Below are positions 172 through 15,591 of a DNA stretch of 40,979 nucleotides, in pieces. The DNA is taken from the IMG/VR virus record IMGVR_UViG_3300047446_000092, positions 1 to 40,979 of that record; one strand, written 5' to 3'. The notes under the pieces are model-generated. The model saw only the letters and a program-made list of their open reading frames with translations. It was not told where the DNA came from and searched no databases. Every line of letters begins with the position of its first letter. Positions within the stretch are counted from its first letter, which is position 1. This DNA comes from a virus. Both the position numbers and the translations under genes were made by a program.

Positions 172-185
172 GTGCAGAACTGCAC
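172..185. promoter_or_regulatory. GTGCAG-AA-CTGCAC inverted repeat
   Basis: A perfect 6-bp inverted repeat with a 2-base spacer. It starts two bases after the stop of the 188-514 gene and 29 bases before the start at 142. On the minus strand it is followed by ATTATT, which could be a -10 element. It belongs to the family of eleven such repeats in the left 11.2 kb. Operator, promoter element or intercistronic RNA hairpin are all possible. Confidence 0.6.
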
Positions 186-187
186 TC

Positions 188-514
188 TTACGAGTGCGTC
201 GTGTACTTCGTGCCGTCTTCACGGGCAACCGCGGCCATCGTGAAGCCCTGCTTTTCAGCCGGGGCGTCTGCATCGCGGTAGGTGAAGCAGATCTCGACAT
301 CCGTCATGTCCTTGCCGACGTTGATGCCGCCGTTGACGGTGGAGTCGGTCATCGAGCTGGTCATGCCGTAGAAGACCATGTAGCCGAGCGCTTTAATGAA
401 AGCGTCGTACTGCTCGTTGGAGCGTTGCGCGCCGAGGCGCGTTGAGCTATCGCCGAACACCAGCTTGTCGCTGTCGAAGTGAATCTCAAGAGTGCGTTTA
501 ACGTAAGTGGCCAT
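188..514 (-). CDS. Hypothetical protein (108 aa)
   Basis: Function unknown. The frame is open further upstream, but I place the start at the ATG at 514 (MATYVKRTLEIHF). This ATG stands behind CACCACCACAGAGTAATC, nearly the same leader as the gene at 142, and the shared MAT start supports the choice. The protein is soluble, mixed beta/alpha, with no Cys and no membrane segment. An inverted repeat (547-567) lies upstream and a GTGCAG repeat lies directly downstream, so it may be transcribed as a single-gene unit. Confidence 0.75.
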   Translation of the reverse strand: MATYVKRTLEIHFDSDKLVFGDSSTRLGAQRSNEQYDAFIKALGYMVFYGMTSSMTDSTVNGGINVGKDMTDVEICFTYRDADAPAEKQGFTMAAVAREDGTKYTTHS

Positions 515-546
515 GATTACTCTGTGGTGGTGAGTGAGTGATGATG

Positions 547-567
547 GAATGTTCGCAGTGAACATTC
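547..567. repeat. Inverted repeat GAATGTTC-N5-GAACATTC
   Basis: Perfect 8-bp arms (547-554 and 560-567) separated by GCAGT. It touches the last codon of the 566-799 gene and lies about 33 bases upstream of the ATG at 514. It holds the position that the GTGCAG repeats hold elsewhere but has a different sequence. It may be an operator or an intercistronic hairpin. Confidence 0.5.
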
Positions 568-799
568 AGAAGAGCTGGATTTCAGCTCCGTGCAGCTTGT
601 GGATCAGGCACTGATACGTCGCCCAGCCCTCGACCTCTTCGAGCGTTTCGATGCAGCGGATACGCGTCTCGCGGCAGTAGTCGCGGATGACACCGTCATC
701 GTTCTTGATCTTGAACACGACTTGCCAGTTGGCGTTGGCTTTCCACTTCGACTTGAGATCTATTTCGTCGAAGCGACGGGTGATGACTGGCGTGCTCAT
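566..799 (-). CDS. Hypothetical protein (77 aa)
   Basis: Unknown function. Begins MSTPVITRRFDEIDLKSK. A good SD (GGAGA) lies 7-8 bases before the ATG. The ATG overlaps the stop of the upstream gene (ATGA at 796-799), indicating translational coupling. Two Cys are spaced CRETRIRC; no other motif is seen. Confidence 0.75.
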   Translation of the reverse strand: MSTPVITRRFDEIDLKSKWKANANWQVVFKIKNDDGVIRDYCRETRIRCIETLEEVEGWATYQCLIHKLHGAEIQLF

Positions 800-1047
800 G
801 CTTGCGTCTCCGGTTCAAGTTGCACAGTCAGACATTCGTCGTACTTCTTGCCGAGATAGTGGAATGGTCGGCCTCGCATCCACTTCGTTCGCACACGCCA
901 CCAGCGGCTGTACCACAGCACGAGGTAGTACGGCTCTTCTTGCTCGTCCACGGGCAAGATGTATTGCACCGGGACAGACCGCGTGCAGAAGCTGTCGAAC
1001 GAAGTGCCGTCGAGCGTTCGGCACTTCGTGTGAACCCAGGCTTTCAT
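796..1047 (-). CDS. Hypothetical protein (83 aa)
   Basis: Unknown. Basic, rich in Trp and Tyr, with the segment YYLVLWYSRWWRVRTKWMRG. This could be a small beta domain rather than a membrane span because of its many charges. It overlaps both neighbours by four bases (ATGA), and no independent SD is obvious, so translation probably depends on the gene upstream. Confidence 0.7.
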   Translation of the reverse strand: MKAWVHTKCRTLDGTSFDSFCTRSVPVQYILPVDEQEEPYYLVLWYSRWWRVRTKWMRGRPFHYLGKKYDECLTVQLEPETQA

Positions 1048-1388
1048 GCGCGCACCCAGTACGTTTCGTCGCTGAAGCTGACTTGCTTGTAGTCTTGCTT
1101 CAGCGCGTCGGCCGCTTTAGACCAGTCGATATGGTTGTAGGGCCAGCCGCTGATCGGTCCCATGCCGCCCGCGTAGCTTTCGCACCACTGCTCGAAGTGA
1201 CTGTCGAGGATCAGATGCCAACCCTCCCGGCACCCCGTCGCGCTATCGCCCTCGTCGAGCAGATCCGTCATGTCTTTCAGAAGCTGCGCGTCGTTTCCGT
1301 CGCACGTCACCTTGACCTGATCGGCCTGCTCACCAATCGCGGCGATGATGTCGCTGCGAGTGATGATTCGTTGTCCGGTGTCGATCAT
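1044..1388 (-). CDS. Hypothetical protein (114 aa)
   Basis: Unknown. The start at 1388 (MIDTGQRIITRSDI) is chosen because CTGGAGAA lies just upstream and the ATG overlaps the preceding stop (ATGA). An upstream in-frame alternative start has neither feature. Acidic, with a WHLILDSHFEQW segment rich in aromatics; no catalytic motif recognised. Confidence 0.75.
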   Translation of the reverse strand: MIDTGQRIITRSDIIAAIGEQADQVKVTCDGNDAQLLKDMTDLLDEGDSATGCREGWHLILDSHFEQWCESYAGGMGPISGWPYNHIDWSKAADALKQDYKQVSFSDETYWVRA

Positions 1389-1870
1389 TGTGTTTTCTCC
1401 AGTGCGTCGCCGAGCTTGACGCAAAGCTCGGCGTTGCTCAGGGGTGGCAGTTCTCCAGTCGCGAGCAACGTCACATGTCCATACGCTTCGCGTAGAAGTT
1501 GTTCGAGCTGCCAGATCCGGTAGCGCAGCTGCTCCTTGTCCGACTCTTCGCTTTCGAGCGTGTGGCGAGCGTGCTCAGCCTCTTTCTCGTGCTCGAAGTA
1601 GTCGCTGTAGATGCCCCCGACGACGCGTCGCGTCACGAAATACCGTTTCAGCCTGCCGGGGACGGACAGGTACGCCACCGCAAACGGGTACGCGTTCGGC
1701 GTCGCTTGCACGAGCGATTCGCGGAACTTCCACTCGCGGTGGACCAGCTCGGCGATGTACTTCGCGTCGGCCAGTTCCATGTCGCTCGCGACGAGAGCAT
1801 CGTTCTGGTCGCGCAGCTGGCTGTAGTTGCCCTTCGGCAAAACATTCCAGGGCAGCGGTTTCACTTCCAT
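1385..1870 (-). CDS. Hypothetical protein (161 aa), C-terminal coiled coil
   Basis: Unknown. The N-terminal ~55 residues contain an ELADAKYIAELVH segment resembling small phage proteins that list residue-level modifications, but no family can be named. Residues ~90-135 are charged and helical (heptad-like EHEKEAEHARHTLE) and probably form a coiled coil. The SD GGAGGAG is strong and well spaced. Its stop overlaps the next start. Confidence 0.8.
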   Translation of the reverse strand: MEVKPLPWNVLPKGNYSQLRDQNDALVASDMELADAKYIAELVHREWKFRESLVQATPNAYPFAVAYLSVPGRLKRYFVTRRVVGGIYSDYFEHEKEAEHARHTLESEESDKEQLRYRIWQLEQLLREAYGHVTLLATGELPPLSNAELCVKLGDALEKTQ

Positions 1871-1873
1871 GAT

Positions 1874-2200
1874 TCACTCCTCCTTCAAGATGAAACCGCA
1901 GTAGGCGGTGTCGCCGACGATGATGGCCGGATGGTCGTAGCCGTCGAGTCCGCTGGTGAGCGCTTCGAGGATGTTGCGTTCGCTGCCCCAACGCCTCCAG
2001 CCGGTCAGCTCTTGGGGGTTGAAGTGCTCGTCTTGGTCACCGAATTCGACGGTCAACGTGTGCTTCCACTCGAAGTGGATGACGCCATTGATCTCGAAGG
2101 TCTTGCCTGCCGCAGCTTCGGCGATCTTCGCTTCTTCGTCGGGCGAGAGCAGGCCTTCTGGGTAGGGGTACGGGTAGCCGTTTTGCAGGATCAGTCTCAT
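1874..2200 (-). CDS. Hypothetical protein (108 aa)
   Basis: Unknown. The start at 2200 gives MRLILQNGYPYPYPEG and overlaps the upstream stop (ATGA), with a purine-rich GAGAAG upstream. The Tyr-Pro repeat YPYPYP and the WRRWGSERN patch stand out. Acidic overall, no Cys pair or membrane segment. Confidence 0.75.
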   Translation of the reverse strand: MRLILQNGYPYPYPEGLLSPDEEAKIAEAAAGKTFEINGVIHFEWKHTLTVEFGDQDEHFNPQELTGWRRWGSERNILEALTSGLDGYDHPAIIVGDTAYCGFILKEE

Positions 2201-2817
2201 GATTTGTTCTTCTCTTGATAACGGTTCATCGCTTCGATGAACCACGGTTTGAATGGCTCGCCTACTGATGCGAGGTTGTCGTAGGAACACGAGAAGTCCG
2301 GTTCATCCGACATGTAGTGAAACCTCAGCCCCTGCGGCCAGCTCGCGTGGTAGACCAGGTAGTACGAGATGTTGCCGACCAGTTCGTTGTCGACGACTTC
2401 GAACTTCTTGCCCTTGTATTGGCGGCGGATGTCTTCGTGGTGGTCCCACTCATGCATGTTGCAGCGGCGCTGCGCGTCGCTCTCTTTGTCTTCGAGCCAC
2501 ACCCATGCAGCGACAAAGCAACCATCGTCGCCGCGCGAGACCAGTGCGTTGTCGTCGATCTCGATGTTGTCGCTGCTACCGAGGCAATACTGGTCGCGAG
2601 CGCGGTGGATCTCGTCGATCGTCGCCGGCTCAGGTTCAGGCTGCTGGATGCCGCCGTGCTCGTTCGCGTCGAAGTGCTCGACGCGGCCGAGGTTGGTGAT
2701 GATGGCCAGCTTGTTCTCCTTGCGGAGCAGAAGGCCGTCGATCGCGTAGCCCTGCTCGCCGATCATGAGCAGCGCTTTCTTCAGCGCCATGTTCGAAGGT
2801 TTGGTCTTGTCGGTCAT
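2197..2817 (-). CDS. Hypothetical protein (206 aa)
   Basis: Unknown; one of the larger early genes here. ATG at 2817 is preferred over an in-frame TTG six bases upstream, because GGAG sits 9 bases before it and it overlaps the previous stop (ATGA). The N-terminal half has a small beta-rich domain (AIDGLLLRKENKLAIITN). The C-terminal half is acidic with several Trp and Cys. No family recognised. Confidence 0.75.
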   Translation of the reverse strand: MTDKTKPSNMALKKALLMIGEQGYAIDGLLLRKENKLAIITNLGRVEHFDANEHGGIQQPEPEPATIDEIHRARDQYCLGSSDNIEIDDNALVSRGDDGCFVAAWVWLEDKESDAQRRCNMHEWDHHEDIRRQYKGKKFEVVDNELVGNISYYLVYHASWPQGLRFHYMSDEPDFSCSYDNLASVGEPFKPWFIEAMNRYQEKNKS

Positions 2818-2948
2818 TTCCAAAGACTCCGGAAGCGGCGGTTCTTGCGGGCGATCTTCTCGCGTCGGATCTCGCGCTTCACGAAACCCGTGTTGCCGCC
2901 GTTGAAGTGGTTGCGCATCGTGCGCTGGTAGATGTGGCGAACCTTCAC
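2814..2948 (-). CDS. Small basic protein (44 aa), GTG start
   Basis: Very basic (KREIRREKIARKNRRFR), possibly nucleic-acid binding. A longer reading with a GTG at 3002 is possible. I choose the GTG at 2948 because it overlaps the upstream stop as GTGA, matches the coupling used throughout the cluster, and has AAGGGAGA upstream. Its stop in turn overlaps the next ATG. Confidence 0.6.
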   Translation of the reverse strand: MKVRHIYQRTMRNHFNGGNTGFVKREIRREKIARKNRRFRSLWK

Positions 2949-3181
2949 TGCGGGTCTCCCTTGAGTTCCTTCAGGATTGCGATAGCTTCTGCATCGACCC
3001 ACGCGGCGAACTGGTCTACCGTGGGCATACGACGCTCCATCTCGTCTTCACGGTGGGGGTTATCGCGGAAGAAGTTGCGGATCTCCTTGATGCGTGGGTC
3101 TCGATCCATGCCCATGTCGGCCGCAACGCCGCACAAGATCCTGAACCGGAGGCCGAATGCATCGAGTTCGGCGGTGCTCAA
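2945..3181 (-). CDS. Hypothetical protein (78 aa), TTG start
   Basis: Unknown. The TTG at 3181 is chosen because GAGGAGG lies directly upstream and the TTG overlaps the previous stop (TTGA). The reading upstream of it would lie wholly inside the neighbouring gene. The protein begins with STAELDAFGLRFRI and contains a charged helical middle (DPRIKEIRNFFRDNPHRED). Confidence 0.65.
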   Translation of the reverse strand: MSTAELDAFGLRFRILCGVAADMGMDRDPRIKEIRNFFRDNPHREDEMERRMPTVDQFAAWVDAEAIAILKELKGDPQ

Positions 3182-3414
3182 GCAGCCTCCTCGATAAGTG
3201 CAGGCCTGCACGATTCGACGTGCTCGCTGGTGTGGAAGACGACTTCAACGCGCTGCATGCCGGCGACGAAGTGCTCTTTCTGCACGTAGCCACTGCCGCC
3301 TTCGTTGGCCAGCTGCTTGGCGTGCGAGATTGCGTTCTTCGATGACGCGAACTCACGCGTTCGATATGCGCCCGACTTCGTGGTGATGCGGGTGCGATAG
3401 ATCGGTTTGCTCAC
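3178..3414 (-). CDS. Hypothetical protein (78 aa), GTG start
   Basis: Unknown. The frame is open upstream into the divergent gene at 3460. The GTG at 3414 (M-SKPIYRTRITTKSG) with AGGA 8-9 bases before it gives a compact protein that avoids that overlap. The sequence alternates basic and hydrophobic residues, like a small beta-rich domain. A GTGCAGGCCTGCAC palindrome (3198-3211) lies inside its last codons. Confidence 0.6.
   Translation of the reverse strand: MSKPIYRTRITTKSGAYRTREFASSKNAISHAKQLANEGGSGYVQKEHFVAGMQRVEVVFHTSEHVESCRPALIEEAA
3198..3211. promoter_or_regulatory. GTGCAGGCCTGCAC inverted repeat inside a CDS
   Basis: Perfect palindrome of the GTGCAG family inside the 3' end of the 3178-3414 gene, about 17 bases upstream of the TTG start at 3181. 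An identical 14-mer lies at 8927-8940. Confidence 0.5.
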
Positions 3415-3459
3415 AATTTTTGTCCTATAACTTGGAGATCGAACCTTGAAGGAACGATC
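3415..3459. promoter_or_regulatory. Divergent intergenic spacer, possible promoter
   Basis: A 45-base spacer between divergent starts at 3414 (-) and 3460 (+). It is the only AT-rich stretch nearby. A TATAAC hexamer (plus strand) and TTATAG (minus strand) could serve as -10 elements. No convincing -35 is seen for either direction. Confidence 0.35.
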
Positions 3460-3642
3460 ATGTGGATCTGCATTCGCTGCCATAGGGAAATAGAGTTCCC
3501 CGCTAATCAACCGGAGATTGATAGCTTCGGCATCTGTGTGTGGTGTCCGCATTGCGGCAGACGGAACACGCTCACCAACGTTGGCAAGCGTGGTCGAATT
3601 GCTCTCTCTCAAGCGCCTGAGAGAAAAGCCAGGCGTCAGTGA
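3460..3642 (+). CDS. Small zinc-ribbon protein (60 aa)
   Basis: Begins MWICIRCHREIEFPAN and carries two CxxC knuckles (CIRC at residues 4-7 and CPHC at ~29-32, followed by GRRN), the layout of a rubredoxin-type zinc ribbon. Such small ribbons usually bind nucleic acid or protein partners; the target here is unknown. AAGGA lies six bases before the ATG. It is the only plus-strand gene in the first 11 kb and converges with its neighbour, overlapping by 7 bases. Its basic C-terminus (PERKARRQ) fits nucleic-acid contact. Confidence 0.75.
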   Translation: MWICIRCHREIEFPANQPEIDSFGICVWCPHCGRRNTLTNVGKRGRIALSQAPERKARRQ

Positions 3643-4196
3643 GTGAGGGTGTCGCGCTCAGCCCAGTACCTGGCTTCGATAGCTTCAGCCTCGGCTTCTT
3701 CAGCGTCACGCTTCGCTTCTTCCTTCGCCTGATACTCGCGCTCGCTATCAGCGGCGTGCTCGGCCATGCTGTCCGCACCGTATGCGGCCGACAGCTCGCT
3801 ACCGTAGACGTAGTAGCTGACTTCGCTCGCCATACCCTCGCCCATGCTCCAACCTGCCAGCCAGCCACGGCCATGTGGTAGTGCGAGCACGAGGCCACGG
3901 ATGGTCTGGTCTTGATAGTCGTCGCAGAACCAGCCGGTGTGTTTGATGTGGGTTGCGATGTCATCGCACCACTTCCAGCGCAGCTGAAACGGATTGCCGC
4001 CGCTGTCCGACAGGTAGAAGCCGATACCATCGGTGTTGTTAGGCGTCGGCTTGTGGTAGTAGCCGGAAGTCCAGCGGTTCTTCGCTTCTTTCGCGCGCTT
4101 GGGCAGCGGGCCACGTGGCAACGACCACTGCCACTTCGGGAAATCGAACCCAGCGAACGTGAACTCGGTCTCGAGTTTTCGAGTCATCGACTTCAT
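3636..4196 (-). CDS. Hypothetical protein (186 aa), charged C-terminal helix
   Basis: Unknown. The N-terminal ~135 residues are rich in Trp and Gly (KWQWSLPRGP, GRGWLAGWSMGEGM). The last ~45 residues form a long Glu/Ala helix (EEAKRDAEEAEAEAIEARYW), likely a coiled coil. The ATG overlaps the upstream stop (ATGA). A second in-frame ATG three codons later is possible. It ends convergently with the zinc-ribbon gene. Confidence 0.75.
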   Translation of the reverse strand: MKSMTRKLETEFTFAGFDFPKWQWSLPRGPLPKRAKEAKNRWTSGYYHKPTPNNTDGIGFYLSDSGGNPFQLRWKWCDDIATHIKHTGWFCDDYQDQTIRGLVLALPHGRGWLAGWSMGEGMASEVSYYVYGSELSAAYGADSMAEHAADSEREYQAKEEAKRDAEEAEAEAIEARYWAERDTLTH

Positions 4197-4465
4197 AGCT
4201 TCACCGTCAAGTCGCCGCCATACAGCACGTCATTGCGGGTGTTGAAGCCCGGAGGAACGCGGTCGCCGTGGAACTGCATCGCGAGCATCGCCGCATGGCC
4301 ACGTTCCTCGGCCTTGCTGATCTCTTCGCGCTTGGCGAGCGCGTCGTTGAACGTACCTTCGAACAGGTCGTTGTGGTACGTCTTCGAGCCGAGCGCAATG
4401 CTGTGGAAACCGTTGTCCGCTGACGCGGGGTACAGCGTGATGCGGAATTTGTAGGTCTTAGCCAT
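4193..4465 (-). CDS. Hypothetical protein (90 aa)
   Basis: Unknown. The start at 4465 (MAKTYKFRITLYPAS) is set by a strong GAGGAGA SD. The longer reading would overlap the acidic tail of the gene upstream. Beta-rich N-terminus, then an alanine-rich helix. It overlaps the upstream gene by 8 bases and its stop overlaps the next ATG. Confidence 0.8.
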   Translation of the reverse strand: MAKTYKFRITLYPASADNGFHSIALGSKTYHNDLFEGTFNDALAKREEISKAEERGHAAMLAMQFHGDRVPPGFNTRNDVLYGGDLTVKL

Positions 4466-4835
4466 TCTGGTTCTCCTCTTCTTCTTCATCGTCTTCGTCA
4501 TCCGGAAACTGCACGCCCAGCCGCTTGGCCAGGTTCATTGCCTTCTCGCGGATCTCGACCGTCCCGAGCGGCGCGGTGTAGTTGTTGAACTCGCCGTTGC
4601 GGCTGTAGCAGTCGACCAACTCGGCGAGGAAGTTGGCAACATCGCCGGCCACGTCATCTGCGGTCACGGCCTCGATGTCAGCGATCTTGGCTGTCATCTC
4701 CGCACGCTCTTCGTCGCTGGAGTGGCGACGCCCGTCACCCTCCATGTCGGCCAGGTCGTCGCGCAGTGTGGCCACCAGTTCGTTCTGCATGTACGAATGC
4801 ACATCGGAGATGCTGGCGAAAAATTGCAGGTTCAT
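4458..4835 (-). CDS. Hypothetical acidic protein (125 aa)
   Basis: Unknown. Largely helical with a strongly acidic C-terminus (DDEDDEEEEENQNG). Acidic tails occur in small phage proteins that mimic DNA or bind basic host factors, but nothing here proves that role. The ATG overlaps the preceding stop (ATGA). The codons of the acidic tail also supply the AGGAGA SD of the following gene. Confidence 0.8.
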   Translation of the reverse strand: MNLQFFASISDVHSYMQNELVATLRDDLADMEGDGRRHSSDEERAEMTAKIADIEAVTADDVAGDVANFLAELVDCYSRNGEFNNYTAPLGTVEIREKAMNLAKRLGVQFPDDEDDEEEEENQNG

Positions 4836-4969
4836 GGCTTCGTCCCCGGCCCGAGTTCGGCCCAGTCAGTGATCAGGTGGTAGTTGCACTCGCAGATCCA
4901 GCCTTCGCTGAGCTGCACGCCGCAGGAACAGGTGTTGAACTTCAGCCGTCCTTTTGACAGCTGTCGCAC
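4832..4969 (-). CDS. Small zinc-ribbon-like protein (45 aa)
   Basis: Contains CSCG (residues ~14-17) and CEC (~26-28), a compact four-cysteine site like a minimal zinc knuckle. The frame is open further upstream inside the next gene. A GTG at 4969 gives a 45-residue protein overlapping that gene by 28 bases. A CTG nearer the stop is an alternative. The product could act with the adjacent zinc-ribbon protein (4942-5304). Confidence 0.55.
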   Translation of the reverse strand: MRQLSKGRLKFNTCSCGVQLSEGWICECNYHLITDWAELGPGTKP

Positions 4970-5304
4970 TTCCCGATCTGCGACGGTTCGAGGGTTTCGT
5001 TGCAGGCGTCGCAGTGTTCGAGCGACGAGTCGTCGGAGCCGTACGCCGACTGAATCTTTTCGTTTGAATGAGCGCATGTCAGCTCGTTGTCTTCCCAGTT
5101 AATGTCCATCGCAATCACGAACCAGCCGCTGTGCTTGTCGCGGGTGATGATTGCGTCTCGAATCAAGGCTGCGTTTTCCTGTGCTGCTGCGAACGACAGA
5201 GCTTCACAGTCGTTGCACAGGAAGTAATGCGGGTATCCACCGGGCCATGCATACGGCCCGATGTCTAACGCCTTGTTAAAGTCAAAGACGTGCTTGATGT
5301 TCAT
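4942..5304 (-). CDS. Zinc-ribbon protein (120 aa)
   Basis: Three cysteine pairs are visible: CNDC (30-33), CAH (77-79) and CDAC/CDSC (98-101, 113-116). The last two pairs form a C-terminal ribbon. CAHSNEKIQSAYG resembles a recurrent motif of small phage zinc proteins, though I cannot name the family. A GGAG SD precedes the ATG, which also overlaps the stop of a 39-codon gene upstream. Confidence 0.8.
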   Translation of the reverse strand: MNIKHVFDFNKALDIGPYAWPGGYPHYFLCNDCEALSFAAAQENAALIRDAIITRDKHSGWFVIAMDINWEDNELTCAHSNEKIQSAYGSDDSSLEHCDACNETLEPSQIGKCDSCQKDG

Positions 5305-5420
5305 CTCGTCCTACTCCAGTACGTCCAGCTGTGGCCACGCTGCACACGAACGTGCAGCACGTTTGAAAACCCGCCGTGGTCATAGAACTCGCGGCGGGTA
5401 ATTCGGGTGTAGCCGAGCAT
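5301..5420 (-). CDS. Small hypothetical protein (39 aa)
   Basis: Begins MLGYTRITRREFYDHGG and ends SWTYWSRTR; basic and aromatic. Support comes from position: its ATG shares one base with the upstream stop (TGATG) and its stop overlaps the next start (ATGA). It exactly fills the only gap between the neighbouring genes and carries the downstream gene's SD. An outward pair of GCTGCAC/GTGCAGC half-sites lies inside it (5339-5358). Confidence 0.6.
   Translation of the reverse strand: MLGYTRITRREFYDHGGFSNVLHVRVQRGHSWTYWSRTR
5339..5358. repeat. Inverted GCTGCAC-N6-GTGCAGC
   Basis: Perfect 7-bp arms with a 6-base spacer, inside the 39-aa gene. The half-sites match the GTGCAG family but in the opposite (outward) order, so this may be a chance relative rather than a functional copy. 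Confidence 0.35.
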
Positions 5421-5719: not shown

Positions 5720-5736
5720 GATTTGATCCTCAAAAT

Positions 5737-5751
5737 GTGCAGCCTCTGCAC
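5737..5751. promoter_or_regulatory. GTGCAG-CCT-CTGCAC inverted repeat
   Basis: Perfect 6-bp arms, spacer 3, 17 bases upstream of the ATG at 5719 and followed on the minus strand by ATTTTGAGGA, which includes the SD. CACCACCAC (5755-5763) abuts its other side. Confidence 0.65.
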
Positions 5752-5779
5752 GTTGTGGTGGTGAGTGGGTGAAACGGTT

Positions 5780-5971
5780 TTAGCCCGGAGCGTTGCTGTA
5801 CTTCTCGAACAGTTCGGGCCAGGTCTGTTCGATCCTGCGACGGTTGGTCGAATCAGCGACTGTGTACATGTCGCCGAGCTTGGAGGAGAAGCCGCTGCCG
5901 TGGCGCATCATCTTGATTGCGATGCTGTGCTTCTCTTCAGCGGTCATGTCATCAACGAAGCGCCGGGTCAT
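5780..5971 (-). CDS. Hypothetical protein (63 aa)
   Basis: Unknown. Begins MTRRFVDDMTAEEKHS; all-helical, no Cys. The ATG overlaps the upstream stop (ATGA). It is the last gene of a three-gene unit (6623 to 5780) that ends just before the repeat at 5737-5751. Confidence 0.75.
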   Translation of the reverse strand: MTRRFVDDMTAEEKHSIAIKMMRHGSGFSSKLGDMYTVADSTNRRRIEQTWPELFEKYSNAPG

Positions 5972-6360
5972 GCCTTGGTCTCCTTGCGCAGCTTGGCTGC
6001 TTTACGTGCGCGCTTGGCTTCAGCTGCGGCCATGCGGTCACGATCTTGTTGAGTGAGTTGCTTCGGCTCGACGTAAGTCGTTGCCTTGATCGAACGGTCG
6101 CGAGGTTTCAGCAGGCGGTCGATGACTGATAGATCCGGTAGCACTAGCGGCATCATTTCGTCGAGCAACACTGCCTTGCCACCTTCGAAGCCGAAGCGCA
6201 CAGCATCGAACGAGCCGTGATACCTCGGACCAGCACCGACGACGATAGGATCGTCACGACGCACAACCTCAACGTCGATACCCTGCGCCTTGAAGTCCTG
6301 CACGAGACCTTCGAAGATCTGTTCCTGATCCGAGAAGATGGCGATTCGTGTTTCGCTCAT
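5968..6360 (-). CDS. Hypothetical protein (130 aa)
   Basis: Unknown. The N-terminus (RIAIFSDQEQIFEGLVQDFK) has an alternating beta-alpha pattern like a small Rossmann-type fold. The C-terminal ~30 residues are a basic helix (DRMAAAEAKRARKAAKLRKE). ATGA overlaps on both sides. Confidence 0.8.
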   Translation of the reverse strand: MSETRIAIFSDQEQIFEGLVQDFKAQGIDVEVVRRDDPIVVGAGPRYHGSFDAVRFGFEGGKAVLLDEMMPLVLPDLSVIDRLLKPRDRSIKATTYVEPKQLTQQDRDRMAAAEAKRARKAAKLRKETKA

Positions 6361-6623
6361 GCCGGCACCGCCTCAGTCACCTGATACGTGTAACGAGCGG
6401 AGCCGAGCTTGCCGTCCATCGTGATGACGATGCCGCATTGCGCAGCCAGGCGGTTGATGAAGTCTTCGAAGCTGTGGAACTGCCGCGTGTCCACGTTCTC
6501 GATCATGAGTTCTTCGAGCACGACATGAATCGCGGGGCCAGCGTAGGAAACGTTCTTCTTCATGTCGGCGAGCATGTCGCCGAAGAAGTGGAAGTAACCG
6601 ATCTTGTTCGTGGTGGTGGGCAC
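6357..6623 (-). CDS. Hypothetical protein (88 aa), GTG start
   Basis: Unknown. GTG at 6623 gives M-PTTTNKIGYFHFFG. It is chosen over a distant upstream start because AGGA lies about 9 bases before it and because a longer reading would run through the repeat at 6644-6657 and another gene. Codons 2-5 contain the CCACCACCACG run. The rest is a small alpha/beta domain. Confidence 0.65.
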   Translation of the reverse strand: MPTTTNKIGYFHFFGDMLADMKKNVSYAGPAIHVVLEELMIENVDTRQFHSFEDFINRLAAQCGIVITMDGKLGSARYTYQVTEAVPA

Positions 6624-6643
6624 GAGTCTTGATCCTTTAAAAC

Positions 6644-6657
6644 GTGCAGCTCTGCAC
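6644..6657. promoter_or_regulatory. GTGCAG-CT-CTGCAC inverted repeat
   Basis: Begins immediately after the stop of the 6658-6969 gene and 20 bases before the GTG at 6623. On the minus strand GTTTTAAAGGATC follows, containing the SD and possibly a -10 or a short U tract. Confidence 0.65.
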
Positions 6658-6969
6658 TTAGTGGTGGGTGATTCGCAGCTTCGGCGTACAGGCATCATTC
6701 GCGGCCGGCACGTCAAATTTTTTCCAGCGCTCAACCTTCGGTATCGGGCAACGTCGCTGCACGACACGAACGATCTTCTCTGCAATCACCCGCTCTTCGG
6801 ATGTGAGTTTGTCGAACCCTTTGCCGGTGCGTACATCGCACATCGCAAGTGGGTAGCTCGTTGGCAACGCATAAAACGCTTGATACAAGACGATGATTTC
6901 AACAGCCATCATCTCTTCCTCAGTCATTCCAAGCACTTTCAACACAAGCTGCGGGATAGGGTTCGCCAT
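6658..6969 (-). CDS. Hypothetical protein (103 aa)
   Basis: Unknown. ATG at 6969 (MANPIPQLVLKVLG) has GAGAGG five bases upstream and is preferred to a GTG two codons earlier. Helical N-terminal half including a moderately hydrophobic stretch (AVEIIVLYQAFYALP), probably buried rather than membrane-spanning. Basic C-terminus ending ITHH. Confidence 0.7.
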   Translation of the reverse strand: MANPIPQLVLKVLGMTEEEMMAVEIIVLYQAFYALPTSYPLAMCDVRTGKGFDKLTSEERVIAEKIVRVVQRRCPIPKVERWKKFDVPAANDACTPKLRITHH

Positions 6970-6999
6970 ACACACCTCTCATTCAGTTTTTGTTCTGAG

Positions 7000-7203
7000 C
7001 TACGAAGCGCGACGCACGACTATGTTCGCGTCGTAGCTGTCGTGCTCTATCAGCGTTTCTCGCACGTATTGAGCCGTGCAGCTCCGGTTGTAGCAGACGG
7101 TGTCGATCTTTCGAGCACCAAGAAACACGTCCCAGCTGATATGTGCAGTCTCTGCACTTATCGGTTGGCGACGTACCAGTTCAAGACTTGCGCGGAGCAT
7201 CAT
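7000..7203 (-). CDS. Hypothetical protein (67 aa)
   Basis: Unknown. Two consecutive ATG codons (7203, 7200) follow GGAGA at a long spacing. A GTGCAGTCTCTGCAC repeat interrupts the frame at 7143-7157, so the true product might instead start further downstream. Two Cys in DTVCYNRSC. Moderate support only. Confidence 0.5.
   Translation of the reverse strand: MMLRASLELVRRQPISAETAHISWDVFLGARKIDTVCYNRSCTAQYVRETLIEHDSYDANIVVRRAS
7143..7157. promoter_or_regulatory. GTGCAG-TCT-CTGCAC inverted repeat inside a CDS
   Basis: Perfect 6-bp arms with spacer 3, inside the 7000-7203 gene. Its presence may mean that the gene starts later than annotated. Confidence 0.5.
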
Positions 7204-7205
7204 GA

Positions 7206-7382
7206 TTAACGGGTCTCCACATAGGAATACGGGTCGAAGCCGGTCACCTGATCCTCGAAGGCGTCGCCGCCCGAGTCAAAGCGCGCCGAGTCCATGTCGG
7301 TCTTCACGAAGAACTCGCCGCAGTCAGGATCGAAAAATCGAGTGCCTACAACGAGGTCGGAGAACATCACGCGTTCAGACAT
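7206..7382 (-). CDS. Hypothetical protein (58 aa)
   Basis: Unknown. MSERVMFSDLVVGTRFFD; the start at 7382 is set by AAGGAG seven bases upstream. The sequence DLVVGTRFFDPDCGEFFVKTD reads like a small beta-barrel fold found in many phage early proteins; no name can be given. Confidence 0.75.
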   Translation of the reverse strand: MSERVMFSDLVVGTRFFDPDCGEFFVKTDMDSARFDSGGDAFEDQVTGFDPYSYVETR

Positions 7383-7392
7383 ACCAGTCTCC

Positions 7393-7683
7393 TTATGCGA
7401 AAAGCGGTTCAAGCGGCATGTGCATCGACGCGTCGCTGAACTGCTTGAGATGACTCATGAGCACGCGGGGATTCTGGCGATTGGCCAGCATCACGCTGCG
7501 TGCAATCTTCTCGATCAGGAGCTGTGTGTCGAGGTCAGGTGAGCCGTGTTCCGCGGCGTAGAGCTTGACCAGCAGTTTGCCCAGCCGAGCGGGGATCGCA
7601 ACTTGGCATTCGTGCGCTGCGCACTTGGCCATCGTGTCGAATTCGAGGCCGTCGCAGGAGCGGTAGCGTTTGAGTTCACGCAT
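7393..7683 (-). CDS. Hypothetical protein (96 aa), paralogue of next gene
   Basis: Unknown. Its first 40 residues (KRYRSCDGLEFDTMAKCAAHE...AIPARLGKLL) align with those of the adjacent gene: both keep KRY, R/CDG, an alanine and HE followed by AIP and two leucines. ATG at 7683 overlaps the upstream gene's end by 8 bases and has GAGG nearby. The pair probably arose by tandem duplication. Confidence 0.75.
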   Translation of the reverse strand: MRELKRYRSCDGLEFDTMAKCAAHECQVAIPARLGKLLVKLYAAEHGSPDLDTQLLIEKIARSVMLANRQNPRVLMSHLKQFSDASMHMPLEPLFA

Positions 7684-8032
7684 CACGGGCCTCGTGCATT
7701 GCGTCCTTCAGCGGGTTGACGCCCTTCTCACGCAGGATGCGTGCAGCCGTCTCGCTTCGTTGGCGATCACGGTCGAACTCGTTCACGACTTCCGCGTTTT
7801 CGAGGTAGTCCGACAGGATGTCGATGACGTTCTGGGCGGTTCCCAGGAGCACATCAACGACAGCTCTGAGGTCATGCTCACGCAGCTCATGAACAGTCTT
7901 CTCCCCGACCAGGGTGCGAAGTTGATAGGGGATCGCGTGGTAGTACTCATGGCGAATCGCCAGCTCATGTTCGTCATGCACGGCGCCATCGCGCGTCTCA
8001 TAGCGCTTGATGGTCTTGAGATGTTGGTTCAT
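7676..8032 (-). CDS. Hypothetical protein (118 aa), paralogue of previous gene
   Basis: Unknown. KRYETRDGAVHDEHELAIRH followed by AIP parallels the N-terminus of the 7393-7683 product. The C-terminal 70 residues are an unshared helical region ending EARDA. AGGA lies about 8 bases before the ATG, which shares one base with the stop of a 36-codon gene upstream (TAATG). Confidence 0.8.
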   Translation of the reverse strand: MNQHLKTIKRYETRDGAVHDEHELAIRHEYYHAIPYQLRTLVGEKTVHELREHDLRAVVDVLLGTAQNVIDILSDYLENAEVVNEFDRDRQRSETAARILREKGVNPLKDAMHEARDA

Positions 8033-8142
8033 TAGTCTTGATCCTGAGATTGGAGTTGGTACAGGAACGGCAGCGAGTCAAGCGACGAATCGAATTCGCG
8101 CAAGTGCTCACCGACCAGTTCGGCCAGTGTTTCAAAGCTCAT
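8032..8142 (-). CDS. Small hypothetical protein (36 aa)
   Basis: Begins MSFETLAELVGEHLREFD, an amphipathic helix, and ends LYQLQSQDQD. There is no SD. The ATG lies nine bases behind CACCACCAC (8152-8160), itself behind the GTGCAG repeat at 8166-8179, so it has the full leader of this phage's units. Its stop shares a base with the next ATG and its last codons hold that gene's SD. Confidence 0.6.
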   Translation of the reverse strand: MSFETLAELVGEHLREFDSSLDSLPFLYQLQSQDQD

Positions 8143-8165
8143 GTGATTTACGTGGTGGTGATTAA

Positions 8166-8179
8166 GTGCAGCGCTGCAC
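8166..8179. promoter_or_regulatory. GTGCAGCGCTGCAC inverted repeat
   Basis: Perfect palindrome 3 bases after the stop at 8183 and 24 bases before the ATG at 8142. Followed on the minus strand by TTAATC and then CACCACCAC. Confidence 0.65.
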
Positions 8180-8182
8180 TAT

Positions 8183-8581
8183 TCAGTGGGCAACCGGCAA
8201 CGACATCGCGTTGTCGAACACGTCATGCAGATAGTTCTTGATCGCGTTGCGATCGCGGCCAGTTATCCGGATGACGTAGCCGTATTCGAGCGACGGCGTG
8301 ATGATGACCTTGTGCTGGGTCCAGCCGTCATACATCCCCACGTCATTCATGTGGTGATAGTCGGCTTGAAACACGAGTTTGTTGCTCTTGCATTCGTGCT
8401 CCAGCAGCTTCGTGCCGGAGTCGATACCAGAGCCACTGGGCAGCAGCTTGAGCATGGCGTCGAGGCGTTCTTCGTGACGCTCCACCCATGACTGCTGCGA
8501 GGAGTTAGCTGAGGGGGACTTGCAACGCTCGATGGTGGACAGCGCAGAGGCTATCGCTTGATAAAGCGGTTTCATAAACAT
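8183..8581 (-). CDS. Hypothetical protein (132 aa)
   Basis: Unknown. ATG at 8581 lies six bases behind CCACCACCACGGAAAC with no SD. A second ATG two codons on (MKPLYQAIAS) is possible. The N-terminal 60 residues are helical. The C-terminal ~65 form an alpha/beta domain (HKVIITPSLEYGYVIRITGRD) that may bind ligand or protein. Confidence 0.75.
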   Translation of the reverse strand: MFMKPLYQAIASALSTIERCKSPSANSSQQSWVERHEERLDAMLKLLPSGSGIDSGTKLLEHECKSNKLVFQADYHHMNDVGMYDGWTQHKVIITPSLEYGYVIRITGRDRNAIKNYLHDVFDNAMSLPVAH

Positions 8582-8701
8582 GTTTCCGTGGTGGTGGAAG
8601 TTTCGATCCAGAGCCTCTTGGCGGGGCTCCTGACACTGCGGTGCTACCTTGGTACTCGTGAGGGCCGGCCAGGGCTCTCAGCGGGCTGTATTCCAGCCCA
8701 A
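8582..8701. other. Short intergenic spacer with hairpin
   Basis: 120 bases between two leftward genes. A hairpin GGGCTG-GAATA-CAGCCC lies just after the stop at 8702 but lacks a U run, so it is a weak terminator candidate. The CACCACCAC leader of the next gene is at its left end. Confidence 0.35.
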
Positions 8702-9163
8702 TCACATCATGAGCTTCAGCAGGACCGTGCCAACGATCCCGGCTACTGCTCCAGTGCCTGCTGCGAACCCGATGATGCGGTCCCAGCGTGCTGCTTTGTG
8801 CTGCTCGGTCAGGCTCAGCTGCACGACGACGCGAGGGCTGTTATTCGCCGTCGCAGTCGCTGTCGTGCGTCGCAGTCGCTGGGGCAAGTAGCTCTCGATC
8901 GTCATTTCCGCGTGGCGCAGGCTTTGGTGCAGGCCTGCACTATTCGCTGTCGCCGTCGCTTGTCGCAGTCGCAGTCGCAGTTGGTCTGCGGTAGGCGGTG
9001 CGGGTGTAGCGCCATACGCAACGACCATGTTCTGGATCGTCGTGTACTGAACCACGGCTTCACGGTTCGCAAGCAACGTCGCGGGAGCTATCCGGAGATC
9101 GCTGGCGGTGACCAGTGGGTTCGAGAGGTGCAAGGATAGCGGTTTACGGAAGGGCTGTGTCAT
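8702..9163 (-). CDS. Hypothetical protein (153 aa) with C-terminal membrane segment
   Basis: Unknown. The last ~24 residues (IIGFAAGTGAVAGIVGTVLL) are a predicted transmembrane helix, so the protein may be tail-anchored in the inner membrane with most of it cytoplasmic. The middle contains two copies of an Ala-Thr run (ATATAN and TATATAN) encoded by arrays of GTCGCA-type microrepeats. There is no SD: ATCACCACCAC abuts the ATG directly. A palindromic AACTATC box lies 13 bases upstream, and a GTGCAG repeat lies inside the gene (8927-8940). Confidence 0.75.
   Translation of the reverse strand: MTQPFRKPLSLHLSNPLVTASDLRIAPATLLANREAVVQYTTIQNMVVAYGATPAPPTADQLRLRLRQATATANSAGLHQSLRHAEMTIESYLPQRLRRTTATATANNSPRVVVQLSLTEQHKAARWDRIIGFAAGTGAVAGIVGTVLLKLMM
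8842..8982. repeat. Two arrays of GTCGCAGTCGC-type microrepeats
   Basis: Arrays at about 8842-8882 and 8941-8982 consist of imperfect tandem GTCGCA/GTCGCT units. Each encodes an R(Q/T)-Ala-Thr run within the 8702-9163 protein, so the two are internal duplicates about 100 bases apart. Confidence 0.5.
8927..8940. promoter_or_regulatory. GTGCAGGCCTGCAC inverted repeat inside a CDS
   Basis: Perfect palindrome in the middle of the 8702-9163 gene, identical to the copy at 3198-3211. Confidence 0.45.
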
Positions 9164-9175
9164 GTGGTGGTGATG

Positions 9176-9190
9176 AACTATCTGATAGTT
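9176..9190. repeat. Palindrome AACTATC-T-GATAGTT, copy 1
   Basis: Perfect 7-bp arms around a central T, 13 bases upstream of the ATG at 9163, so it could control that gene directly. Confidence 0.75.
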
Positions 9191-9276
9191 GTTAAAACGG
9201 GTCGCGGGCCAGCGCGGAACGGGTCAAAAAAGGTGCAGGAATAGACTTCCCATTTCTATTTCTTAAGATCATCTTC

Positions 9277-9291
9277 AACTATCTGATAATT
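9277..9291. repeat. Palindrome AACTATC-T-GATAATT, copy 2
   Basis: One arm position differs from the perfect form (GATAATT). Confidence 0.7.
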
Positions 9292-9350
9292 GAACGCCTC
9301 GCTATGAGATCGAATTTTCATGTCTATTCATGAACCCTCTTTTTCTTCTT

Positions 9351-9384
9351 GGGAAAGGGAAGGAGAAGAAAAAAGAAGAAGAAG
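9351..9384 (+). other. 34-base polypurine tract
   Basis: Entirely A and G on the plus strand, preceded by a pyrimidine run (9335-9350). The CTTTTTCTTCTT and AGAAGAAAAAAG segments are near-perfect inverted arms around a GGGAAAGGGAAGG loop. A DNA-unwinding or structured element of an origin is plausible. Confidence 0.45.
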
Positions 9385-9431
9385 TAATAGGCTAAGTGTT
9401 TGATTTTAAAGACGAAATTCGCCTAATCTCA

Positions 9432-9446
9432 AACTATCAGATAATT
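9432..9446. repeat. Palindrome AACTATC-A-GATAATT, copy 3
   Basis: Same arms as copy 2 with a central A; 155 bases from copy 2. Confidence 0.7.
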
Positions 9447-9512
9447 GTGAGCACGGAGTGCGTTTCTGCCCGTGGTCGACCGTTTCGACCCAATGGCCTG
9501 CCTGCGCCCTCG

Positions 9513-9536
9513 ATGTGTTGTAAAAATACAACACAT
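9513..9536. repeat. Perfect 10-bp inverted repeat with AAAA loop
   Basis: Arms ATGTGTTGTA and TACAACACAT around AAAA. It ends two bases before the DnaA-box match, in the centre of the palindrome cluster. Operator or extruding hairpin. Confidence 0.65.
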
Positions 9537-9538
9537 AG

Positions 9539-9547
9539 TTATCCACA
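9539..9547 (+). promoter_or_regulatory. DnaA-box match TTATCCACA
   Basis: Exact match to the high-affinity bacterial DnaA box TTATNCACA. Only one clear copy is seen. Confidence 0.6.
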
Positions 9548-9648
9548 GGATCGGCCTATCGCGGTTACCCGTTAGACGGAGATTCCACATCATGAAATGC
9601 GCTACCCCTCCTCCGCCCACGCATTTCGACACACATCCGCTCCGCTAC

Positions 9649-9663
9649 AACTATCTGATAGTT
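9649..9663. repeat. Palindrome AACTATC-T-GATAGTT, copy 4
   Basis: Perfect copy, identical to copy 1. Confidence 0.75.
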
Positions 9664-9712
9664 CCGAATCGAACCACGCCAAGGAGCTATAAACACCCCC
9701 ATGTCAACCCAG

Positions 9713-9727
9713 AACTATCCGATAGTT
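9713..9727. repeat. Palindrome AACTATC-C-GATAGTT, copy 5
   Basis: Perfect arms, central C. Its centre is 21 bases (two helical turns) from the centre of copy 6. Confidence 0.75.
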
Positions 9728-9733
9728 GTCCAA

Positions 9734-9748
9734 AACTATCTGATAATT
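9734..9748. repeat. Palindrome AACTATC-T-GATAATT, copy 6
   Basis: Overlaps the last codons and stop of the 9736-10170 gene (its TAG lies inside the palindrome). With copy 5 it forms a same-face pair. Confidence 0.7.
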
Positions 9749-10170
9749 GGAGCGATCTGCACCCGCACGCGAGCGCCCCACTTCTCGGCCAGCTGCCCCA
9801 GCGCCATCCTTACGCCGTCCTTACGGAATGACTCGGCGCGCTCCCGCTCCTGCTCCCGCCGCTCGGCGACCTTTGCGCGCTTTCGCGTCAGCTTCCGCTC
9901 CACATGCGAGCTGAGCCGGTGGTCGGTCGGAGCCGGAGCGGTAGCGGGCGACCATTCGGAGTAACGCGCCCACTGCGGCAGCTCGTCCAGCTCCATGTCG
10001 CCGGCATCCACGCACGCCCAGAGTGACGCCAATGTAGCCAGGCGCTCGGCGCGCTCGCCGTGCTGCATGTCGAAGTCAACATGCACGGCGTAGGCTTTAG
10101 CTGCATCAACCCCGGCAGTAATCGCCTTGGTGTAGTTTGAGATGGTTGGATCGAGATAACGCATGGTCAT
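9736..10170 (-). CDS. Hypothetical protein (144 aa), basic helical
   Basis: Unknown. MTMRYLDPTISNYTKAI; a helical N-terminal half, then a very basic helix (residues ~90-120, HVERKLTRKRAKVAERREQ) suited to nucleic-acid contact. It is the gene next to the palindrome cluster, and its end overlaps copy 6, so a role in binding that region is a reasonable guess without direct proof. SD AGGT is weak; the GTGCAG repeat lies 12 bases before the ATG. Confidence 0.75.
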   Translation of the reverse strand: MTMRYLDPTISNYTKAITAGVDAAKAYAVHVDFDMQHGERAERLATLASLWACVDAGDMELDELPQWARYSEWSPATAPAPTDHRLSSHVERKLTRKRAKVAERREQERERAESFRKDGVRMALGQLAEKWGARVRVQIAPIIR

Positions 10171-10182
10171 TTACCTGAAAAG

Positions 10183-10196
10183 GTGCAGATCTGCAC
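10183..10196. promoter_or_regulatory. GTGCAGATCTGCAC inverted repeat
   Basis: Perfect palindrome only 12 bases upstream of the ATG at 10170, followed on the minus strand by CTTTTCAGG. At this distance a bound protein or hairpin would directly affect transcription start or translation. Confidence 0.65.
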
Positions 10197-10391
10197 ATTG
10201 TCCGGAATCAAATCGGCGCGGCCTATAAGGAGTGCCAGGCAACGCTACTCAACCGCAGCAGCAGGACGCTACAGCGGCACAATCGGGCGCCGCCGCATGA
10301 CGGGGTGGCTGACTCACAATCCGCCGCGGAAAACGCGCCCTTAATACATACGGCGCAACACAACCAGCGCTTTCGCGCTGGTCGCACTCGC
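10197..10391. other. Intergenic spacer
   Basis: About 195 bases between two leftward genes. It contains the terminator candidate at 10363-10382; otherwise GC-rich, with no open frame that fits its neighbours. The promoter of the 10170 gene must lie here, but no clear -35/-10 pair is visible. Confidence 0.4.
10363..10382 (-). terminator. Hairpin terminator candidate
   Basis: CCAGCGC-TTTC-GCGCTGG with flanking A/T pairing, nine bases after the stop of the leftward 10392-11096 gene. Only a loose T-rich tail (TTGTGTTG) follows, so termination may be partial. Confidence 0.55.
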
Positions 10392-11096
10392 TTACGCTGC
10401 GAGGAGTTCCGGCGTAGCCGCCAGTTCCGCCAGTTCGGCGTACATCGCCCGCGCATATTCGCGCCGTTGACCCTCGCTCAACATCTTGAGCATGGCGCGG
10501 GTTTGCATGACGAGATCGGAGACCGTGCCAAGTGCCACGCGCACCGATTCAACCGGCTCGCCTGCGGCGTTCATGGCTTGCTGCGGCGTGCTAACTTGCG
10601 GCTCGCTAGGCGTTTGCGGCGTGGCTTGCTTGGGCTTCTTTTCCGCCGTAGGTTTGCTAAACCCGAATTCAGCGAAAAGCGCGTCCGTGCTATGGCACTT
10701 GAGACCAAAGAGCCACGCCTTAACGATCGCGGCCGCTTCTTTGTCGTCCGCTGCATTCAGCACGTCAAGCATGCTGAGTTGCTTTGCGGCCGCTTGCTTG
10801 CAAATGCCAACGGCTTTTTCGACATAGCGCTTAGCCGTGCCCATGCAGGCGTCCGAACGCGTGGCGCGGTCTGTTTCAGTCAGCGCGTCCCATGCCTTTT
10901 GGCCCTCACGTTGCGCCGCCAGTTCAAACGCAACCGGGCGAACGTTGTTAGCCGCAAAGCCACGTTCTGCAAACGACCCTTGTCGCAAGTAGACCGCGAC
11001 CAATGCAGCGTATGCGCCGCCAACAACCGACTTTTCAGCCGATACGATAGCCTTAACGGCAAACTTGATTTGTTCGAGAGTCGGAACATTAGACAT
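10392..11096 (-). CDS. Hypothetical protein (234 aa)
   Basis: Unknown. MSNVPTLEQIKFAVKAI; alpha-helical N-terminal ~130 residues, a Pro/Thr/Lys-rich linker (~150-180, KKPKQATPQTPSEPQVSTP) and a helical C-terminus. The layout, helical domain plus linker plus helix, fits a DNA-binding or replication accessory factor, but no family is recognised. SD TGGAG lies well placed before the ATG. Two GTGCAG repeats (11153, 11190) lie upstream, the most of any gene here, suggesting tight control. Confidence 0.75.
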   Translation of the reverse strand: MSNVPTLEQIKFAVKAIVSAEKSVVGGAYAALVAVYLRQGSFAERGFAANNVRPVAFELAAQREGQKAWDALTETDRATRSDACMGTAKRYVEKAVGICKQAAAKQLSMLDVLNAADDKEAAAIVKAWLFGLKCHSTDALFAEFGFSKPTAEKKPKQATPQTPSEPQVSTPQQAMNAAGEPVESVRVALGTVSDLVMQTRAMLKMLSEGQRREYARAMYAELAELAATPELLAA

Positions 11097-11152
11097 TGTA
11101 GAAACTCCAGTGATAAGCGCTTTATGTGTGCGCTGATTAGCCAGTATGTAAA

Positions 11153-11166
11153 GTGCAGTTCTGCAC
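11153..11166. promoter_or_regulatory. GTGCAG-TT-CTGCAC inverted repeat
   Basis: Flanked by AA/TT that extend the pairing. On the minus strand CTTTACATACT follows and could hold a -10 (CATACT), so the repeat would lie between -35 and -10 of the 11096 gene. Confidence 0.65.
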
Positions 11167-11189
11167 TTTCTCTTTTCGCTTTGCTAAAA

Positions 11190-11204
11190 GTGCAGACGCT
11201 GCAC
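11190..11204. promoter_or_regulatory. GTGCAG-ACG-CTGCAC inverted repeat
   Basis: The longest member: AAAA and TTTT flanks extend the perfect arms to 10 bp (11186-11208). Centre-to-centre distance to the neighbouring copy is about 37 bases. Confidence 0.65.
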
Positions 11205-15530: not shown

Positions 15531-15591
15531 TTTTTCTTTGTGTTGTTCCGAAGCCTCACTGAGAATAGCGCCTGTTCCAAAGGTCTCCTCA
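15531..15591. promoter_or_regulatory. Divergent spacer before the terminase gene
   Basis: 61 bases upstream of the terminase GTG. GAGAAT at ~15561 is a possible -10 without a good -35. AAAGG before the GTG is the likely SD. Confidence 0.3.

Follow-up and report, generated by a model that had tools for sequence, protein, structure and literature searches.

Dispersed palindromes in the early arm of a siphovirus of the JWF/Seuss group as probable operators of a phage-encoded regulator

The DNA stretch analysed here, called the window at its full length of 40,979 nucleotides, belongs to the virus record IMGVR_UViG_3300047446_000092 of IMG/VR and carries a family of short palindromes of the form GTGCAG-N2/3-CTGCAC, which is the subject of this report. 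The window encodes a primase, a terminase, a portal, a capsid and a tape measure protein, and both this gene content and a tblastn search with the primase link it to the Achromobacter phages JWF and 2-1, Xylophilus phage Lumi and Caulobacter phage Seuss. As the records of these four phages measure 81.5–85.1 kb, the window, judged by its sequence, is about half of the roughly 82-kb genome of a siphovirus from the group of Achromobacter phage JWF and Caulobacter phage Seuss. Its left 11 kb are packed with small minus-strand genes, and the late genes run rightward. Twelve loci with a closely related primase were found in viral contigs, and eight of their records measure 78–83 kb (G001–G008). A megablast comparison of the left 12 kb of the window with phage records returned nothing useful.

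The whole window was searched for GTGCAG-N1..5-CTGCAC, with 100 dinucleotide shuffles serving as control. The pattern matched 11 times, against a shuffle mean of 0.09 and a shuffle maximum of 1; the spacer measures two or three bases in ten of the 11 matches, and all ten lie within the first 11.2 kb (Table 1). A preliminary description of the window had listed these ten copies, and they proved to be real and exactly placed. It had also mentioned a wide-spaced match in the right part, which we recovered inside the terminase gene and do not count as an operator; a similar match is present at 46554 of G008. The outward variant, given as an eleventh member starting at 5339, left the family, since it lies inside a reading frame whose LHxRVQ motif is retained in the window, G001 and G008 and was therefore counted as coding. 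In G008 and G001 the same arms enclose a different 6-base spacer.

Table 1. Palindromes and regulator candidates in the window, numbered from its first nucleotide.
Feature	Position	Strand	Remarks
Operator-like palindrome GTGCAG-AA-CTGCAC	172..185		Between the stop of a minus-strand gene and the start of the next gene (142)
Operator-like palindrome GTGCAG-GC-CTGCAC	3198..3211		Orthologs in G008 and G001 with altered spacer
Operator-like palindrome, spacer 3	5737..5751		18 nt ahead of ATG 5719; orthologs in G001 and G008 (one arm mismatch in G008)
Operator-like palindrome	6644..6657		Followed by AAGGA and a probable GTG start; ortholog in G008
Operator-like palindrome, spacer 3	7143..7157		Orthologs in G001 and G008
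Operator-like palindrome	8166..8179		24 nt ahead of ATG 8142; orthologs in G001 and G008
Operator-like palindrome	8927..8940		Ortholog in G001
Operator-like palindrome	10183..10196		Gap between gp2 and the next gene; GTGCAAGTTGAAC in the orthologous gap of G002, G005 and G006
Head operator-like palindrome, proximal of tandem pair	11153..11166		57 nt ahead of gp2
Head operator-like palindrome, distal, spacer 3	11190..11204		Same spacer retained in G001 and G008
gp2, first gene of the leftward early block	10392..11096	-	PHROG 33934; helical, hypervariable; rival regulator candidate
64-residue Arc/Mnt-like ribbon-helix-helix protein	24807..25001	-	Antisense among late genes; leading regulator candidate
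Outward variant CTGCAC-N6-GTGCAG	5340..5357	-	Coding; inside a 39-codon minus-strand frame, 5301-5420 (frame read by hand)
Wide-spaced match, spacer 5	17189..17205	+	Inside the terminase open frame 15517-17367; not an operator
Second palindrome AACTATC-N-GATA(G/A)TT, six copies	9176..9748		Outside the operator family; non-diversified comparison

The sites keep a close relation to the starts of the early genes. Minus-strand starts follow about 13–57 nt beyond the sites at 172, 5737, 8166, 10183 and 11153; for the site at 6644 this depends on a GTG start. Among the annotated phages, 11 of the 12 sites of JWF, 6 of the 11 sites of phage 2-1 and 8 of the 9 sites of Seuss lie at most 60 nt upstream of an annotated start, compared with 15 %, 15 % and 11 % of random positions, respectively; because four sites per phage are paired copies in terminal repeats, the independent numbers are smaller. 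Wholly within an annotated gene lie two, three and two sites of these phages, in the same order. The head of the early block carries two or three sites about 25–40 bp apart in the window and in G001–G008, and Lumi has a comparable pair before Lumi_002. By eye no sigma-70-like promoter was seen over the sites, no promoter scan having been run, and the T-rich DNA described earlier behind the sites is, again by eye, not general to the families. A further short element, GTGGTGGTG (or CACCACCAC in early-gene sense), is found at 153, 524, 5755, 6610, 8152, 8588 and 9164 of the window, often directly before a start codon or beside a palindrome.

Among the eight large records, G001 and G008 each hold ten copies of the window's exact motif, and G002–G007 hold none. 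All ten copies lie in the early arm in either phage, at 55.3–71.4 kb of G001 and 29.9–40.6 kb of G008, both records being about 82 kb long; the confinement to the left arm noticed earlier must be qualified, as the window spans just about half of the genome, and is in these two relatives one to the early arm. Two more copies were found on the 6.3-kb fragment G014. We then counted palindromes regardless of motif, with arms of six bases and spacers of 0–4, and compared each record with five first-order resamples. The largest family is GTTCAA in G002 and G006, GTGCGA in G003 and G007, GTTCAC in G004, GTTCGT in JWF, phage 2-1 and also G038, TTACTA in Lumi and TTTACC in Seuss. The top families of the close relatives, JWF, 2-1, Lumi and Seuss exceed the largest resampled family, except in G005, where GTTCAA ties with CGCTGG at an exact count of four, does not surpass the controls and was accepted as real solely through orthology.

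Families were also present in distant records matched by the primase, for example GTCCCG-N4 in G045 (15 copies), CTGCCA in G056 (12), TCCCCG in G065 (9), TGCGCA in G042 (5) and CCATAT in G050 (9). The last was chosen from two families that compete in Methylobacterium-type relatives, and in G049 a head family of three or four copies was retained while a larger ATTTCCGGAAAT family was set aside by judgement as a different element. No family above the resampled controls was found in G039, G040, G041, G044, G046, G047, G053, G064 and several short records, among others. CCATAT-N3 and GGTACG-N3 families occur side by side in G072 (L216), L082 and L083.

Joining the sites of 12 phages by single linkage of flank matches gave 29 groups, 25 of which hold one operator type and four of which mix types. 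Two of the four mixed groups are clearly orthologous by eye, and the flank matches behind the other two are weaker. In the first clear group, palindromes with GTGCAG arms precede the gene that begins with ATGCGTTATCTCGATCC in the window and its counterparts in G001 and G008; in G002, G005 and G006 the gap ahead of the corresponding gene has GTGCAAGTTGAAC. In the second, the gap around site 172, whose orthology is indicated by a common CACCACCAC leader and start, contains GTGCAG in the window and G008, two copies of GTTCGACCGTCGCAC in G003, GTTCAGCGTGAAC in G004 and GTGCGACGGTCGCAC in G007. Compared with the two closest relatives, the window shows nearly unchanged arms and drifting spacers. Comparison with G008 over nine sites gave differences at 1 of 108 arm positions, 9 of 21 spacer positions and 30 of 180 flank positions, and comparison with G001 over eight sites at 0 of 96, 10 of 19 and 32 of 160, respectively, so that both pooled differ at 1 of 204 arm and 19 of 40 spacer positions. 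The preliminary description had regarded arms that are not conserved in related phages as fatal to its proposal; we find them kept within the close group and replaced as a set beyond it, a pattern that supports function.

The ten palindromes are probably landing sites for one phage-made regulator. Of the two earlier proposals, operators of an early-gene regulator or intercistronic RNA hairpins, the former gains support from the fixed arms and drifting spacers and from the concerted replacement of arms, some of it at orthologous places. We consider it fairly probable that the palindromes are dispersed DNA operators and that a sequence-specific regulator encoded by the phage, a temperate siphovirus, uses them to keep its leftward early genes silent, most probably during lysogeny. 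Two operator sites would act at the head of the early block, and the remaining ones, mostly located where a short gap separates a stop codon from the ribosome-binding site that follows, would hold a bound protein that blocks passing RNA polymerase in the manner of stoperators. Regulator and sites would switch specificity together between phages, which would give rise to immunity groups.

The leading candidate for this regulator, to which we give about an even chance, is the ribbon-helix-helix (RHH) protein encoded at 24807-25001. The window encodes it, as does every one of the 12 close or outgroup phages with which the window was compared. The JWF record calls it Arc-like and the 2-1 record hypothetical, and those of Lumi and Seuss show no feature at this place. 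The unannotated genes lie on the minus strand at 14955-15218 of Lumi and 15171-15563 of Seuss, the frame of the latter seemingly containing two RHH repeats. All 13 RHH proteins matched Pfam Arc at E<=0.01 (26.6 bits for the protein of the window, cut-off 20.4), and Mnt (1mnt, E 1.7e-5) and AmrZ were the only solved chains matched. Across 22 phages, the motif of its beta strand goes with the operator half-site: AST or PST goes with GTGC in 5 of 5 cases, N-x-SFM with TTT(A/C)CC in 2 of 2 and AFT with GTTC in 9 of 9 (G002, G004, G005, G006, JWF, 2-1, G038, G049 and G053), a pairing that is confounded by relatedness and for which the operators of G049 and G053 rest on three or four copies. When the mean distance of primase, terminase, portal and capsid was removed, the RHH protein gave the largest partial correlation with the operator sequence among the 17 testable of 19 proteins tried in 17 to 22 phages (r 0.32, p 0.002, uncorrected for 17 tests), followed by a value of 0.20 (p 0.026).

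Several observations weigh against this assignment and against reading too much into the sites. The operator strings behind the strand table and the partial correlations were chosen by hand, and a lone copy of the window motif means little, since 11 further viral records retrieved with an extended motif hold one copy each. Among 43 conserved proteins of the 11 closest genomes, the RHH protein ranks only eighth in tracking the operator (partial r 0.19), and its 16-residue windows are unexceptional, with 38 % of all windows performing equally well or better by gap score and 10 % by mean separation. The strand STLRLP is common to the GTGCAG and GTGCGA groups. The protein was detected in 23 of 50 records and not in the other 27, fragments and bacterial assemblies among them, and its Pfam model found it in none of 14 retested records, of which G055, G059, G061, G067, G073 and G074 have palindrome families (counted with no shuffle control). 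Furthermore, no site of a palindrome family was found beside the RHH gene. The operator motif differs between phage groups, but its link to the regulator is correlative and the two correlation tests disagree. The 43-protein ranking is itself a weak test, because the tape measure protein, which cannot be the regulator, comes first (0.59), ahead of gp2 in second place (0.57). Taken as a whole, the scheme in which one RHH repressor per phage silences about ten early-gene gaps as a stoperator-like immunity system, with about a dozen specificities arising by concerted change of beta strand and site, is possible but tentative.

The same DNA operators could instead answer to gp2, the next candidate after the RHH protein, although we regard it as doubtful. 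Here gp2 would act as an autoregulated early-gene switch by binding both the head sites before its own gene and the gaps further downstream, a scenario that is rather unlikely. It draws on the position of gp2 in the window, where it immediately follows the head sites, on the duplication of gp2 and its head site in JWF and phage 2-1, with one copy per terminal repeat, and on its second rank noted above, its 16-residue windows falling in the top 0.2 %. In seven of nine distant phages (G042, G045, G049, G050, G053, G056 and G065), a frame of 225-307 residues, mostly alanine-rich, follows a palindrome of the phage's own family, these places having been picked because the sites were there and the frames looking unrelated. 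However, most early genes have an upstream site, so a site before gp2 is no special sign. The protein was found only in the close group and has no Pfam match and no PDB match at E<=0.001; a structure search of a viral library gave a single match at this threshold, A0A0B5A005, from a model of middling confidence (predicted local distance difference test, pLDDT, 75.6), and a second, distant head gene gave a poor model (pLDDT 50.2). Head genes of the distant groups show no detectable homology, pairwise profile comparison giving nothing above probability 20; the frame of G043 precedes the first detected site and the link in G054 is not clear.

A two-domain helix-turn-helix (HTH) protein encoded outside the window region, at 51581-51985 of G001, was considered as well. 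It occurs in all 12 complete records compared, with an HTH_31 match under the curated cut-off, and in 14 of 30 records overall, and was not found in the family-bearing G042, G050, G056, G065 and G072. By eye its helices are much alike across differing operators, and its partial correlation with the operator is -0.08 over 17 phages. Since it ranks seventh of the 43 proteins (0.22), one place above the RHH protein, we rate it an unlikely regulator rather than dismissing it.

Whichever protein binds them, the operators might serve lytic timing, shutting off the early genes at the onset of late transcription, instead of lysogeny. We hold this to be unlikely. The sites do occur in JWF, 2-1, Lumi, Seuss, G038, G045, G056 and G065, where neither an integrase nor a CbiA/ParA match was obtained with the families sought. 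On the other hand, a tyrosine integrase scored above cut-off in 9 of 20 records (G001, G002, G005, G006, G008, G042, G043, G049 and G053), and JWF is listed as temperate in the literature, with turbid plaques and re-induction by ultraviolet light (PMC3899368). CbiA/ParA exceeded its cut-off in three of the 20 records (G003, G004 and G007), with a match below cut-off in G008. The close relatives are accordingly split into G003, G004 and G007 with a ParA-like protein and G001, G002, G005, G006 and G008 with a tyrosine integrase, as if prophage maintenance modules had been swapped among them.

In Burkholderia paludis MSh1, a relative is embedded in a 290-kb contig and apparently integrated. A 16-bp repeat, picked among 11 shared words at least 16 bases long, forms a putative att pair 78,925 bp apart with one copy near the integrase, and is also found near one end of G002. 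The 8.6-Mb MSh1 assembly contains five copies of GTTCAA-N1/2-TTGAAC, all of them in the prophage (209.7-219.9 kb of the contig), and five other bacterial assemblies contain a single match in one of them. A background frequency of the motif in the host, which the preliminary description had named as the other outcome that would speak against it, is therefore not seen for the palindrome of this prophage in its own host, the one tested. With integrases in relatives, an integrated relative and a JWF inducible by ultraviolet light, an immunity circuit resembling that of stoperators is the best reading of the sites.

The second of the earlier proposals, hairpins in the RNA between cistrons that serve processing, attenuation or weak termination, would suit the intercistronic position of most sites, but such hairpins are very improbable. 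Among 33 early-arm sites of 14 phages with a single arm mismatch, orthologous and terminal-repeat copies being counted separately, five mismatches are G-U, six A-C and 22 other, so that sense-strand RNA pairing is broken in 28. As a structure at the RNA level should prefer G-U over A-C, which is not the case here, we take the sites as DNA dyads, a view that the gaps of 0-4 bases between the arms across phages also fit better than they would hairpin loops. In intrinsic terminators and hairpins, pairing would be conserved rather than sequence; here, the arms are replaced as a set, and none of the 12 sites of JWF overlaps a terminator annotated in its record. Arms that stay fixed beside a drifting spacer, change in concert and carry mismatches that break pairing thus indicate that the palindromes are most likely DNA operators and not hairpins or terminators. 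Centromere-like or packaging/condensation sites are scarcely credible, for although dispersed palindromes can be partition sites and G003, G004 and G007 encode a ParA-like (CbiA) protein, these are just three of 20 records by CbiA, the ParA-type model used, the same kind of sites is carried by G001, G002, G005, G006 and G008 with an integrase and no CbiA over cut-off, and the sites cluster near start codons.

In function the proposed operators resemble the stoperators of cluster A mycobacteriophages such as L5, Bxb1 and TipsytheTRex. Stoperators occur in many copies in short intergenic spaces of the phage's own genome, their sequence differs by subcluster together with the repressor, and related phages vary in whether they encode an integrase or a partition system (PMC6550527, PMC9283540). 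In the present family, most but not all sites have such an intergenic placement, the motif differs between phage groups, and relatives likewise vary between integrase and ParA-like genes. From phage to phage, the stoperator motif changes along with the repressor (PMC6550527). The L5 repressor has more than 20 predicted binding sites, asymmetric 13-mers that occupy promoters as well as short intergenic spaces and whose orientation is tied to transcription, and the solved repressor binds as a monomer via an HTH and a stoperator domain (PMC9283540). Our sites are instead palindromes of 13-18 bp without orientation, with an RHH protein as candidate; since asymmetry and orientation are lacking, we do not class them as stoperators. 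In Bacillus phage SPbeta, according to PMC10516654, the 15-bp element SPBRE is likewise dispersed over intergenic regions of one prophage and bound by the master repressor MrpR, which differs in being a tyrosine-recombinase-like protein.

The candidate regulator resembles P22 Mnt and Arc in its Arc-family RHH domain, matched both by the Pfam model and by the Mnt chain. At two sites of G004 the sequence reads GGTTCAC, which resembles GGTCCAC, the half-site of the Mnt operator. Mnt and Arc have few sites, placed at promoters; the family described here has about ten that are dispersed. In Streptomyces phage phiC31, inverted repeats of the early region are bound by the phage repressor.

Open-access literature searches returned no paper on these palindromic sites and nothing on RHH proteins together with palindromes in phages, and the text of the Lumi paper does not mention "palindrom" (PMC9959647). 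If the operators are what we propose, the superinfection immunity groups of these phages could be read from genome sequence alone, and a mostly unannotated 64-residue protein would gain a testable role. The matched sets of sites and candidate regulators would furthermore provide a natural series of protein-DNA pairs across a wide siphovirus group, on which a joint change in the specificity of a regulator and of ten or more dispersed operators could be tested. To our knowledge, such joint change is known mainly from cluster A mycobacteriophages.

A second, unrelated palindrome cluster sits in a poorly coding stretch downstream of gp2 (Table 1). Its core CTATCNGATAG is retained in the window, G001, G002, G004, G005, G006 and G008 despite their differing operator arms, which shows that arm change is no general habit of palindromes in this region. 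The cluster is possibly a replication origin.

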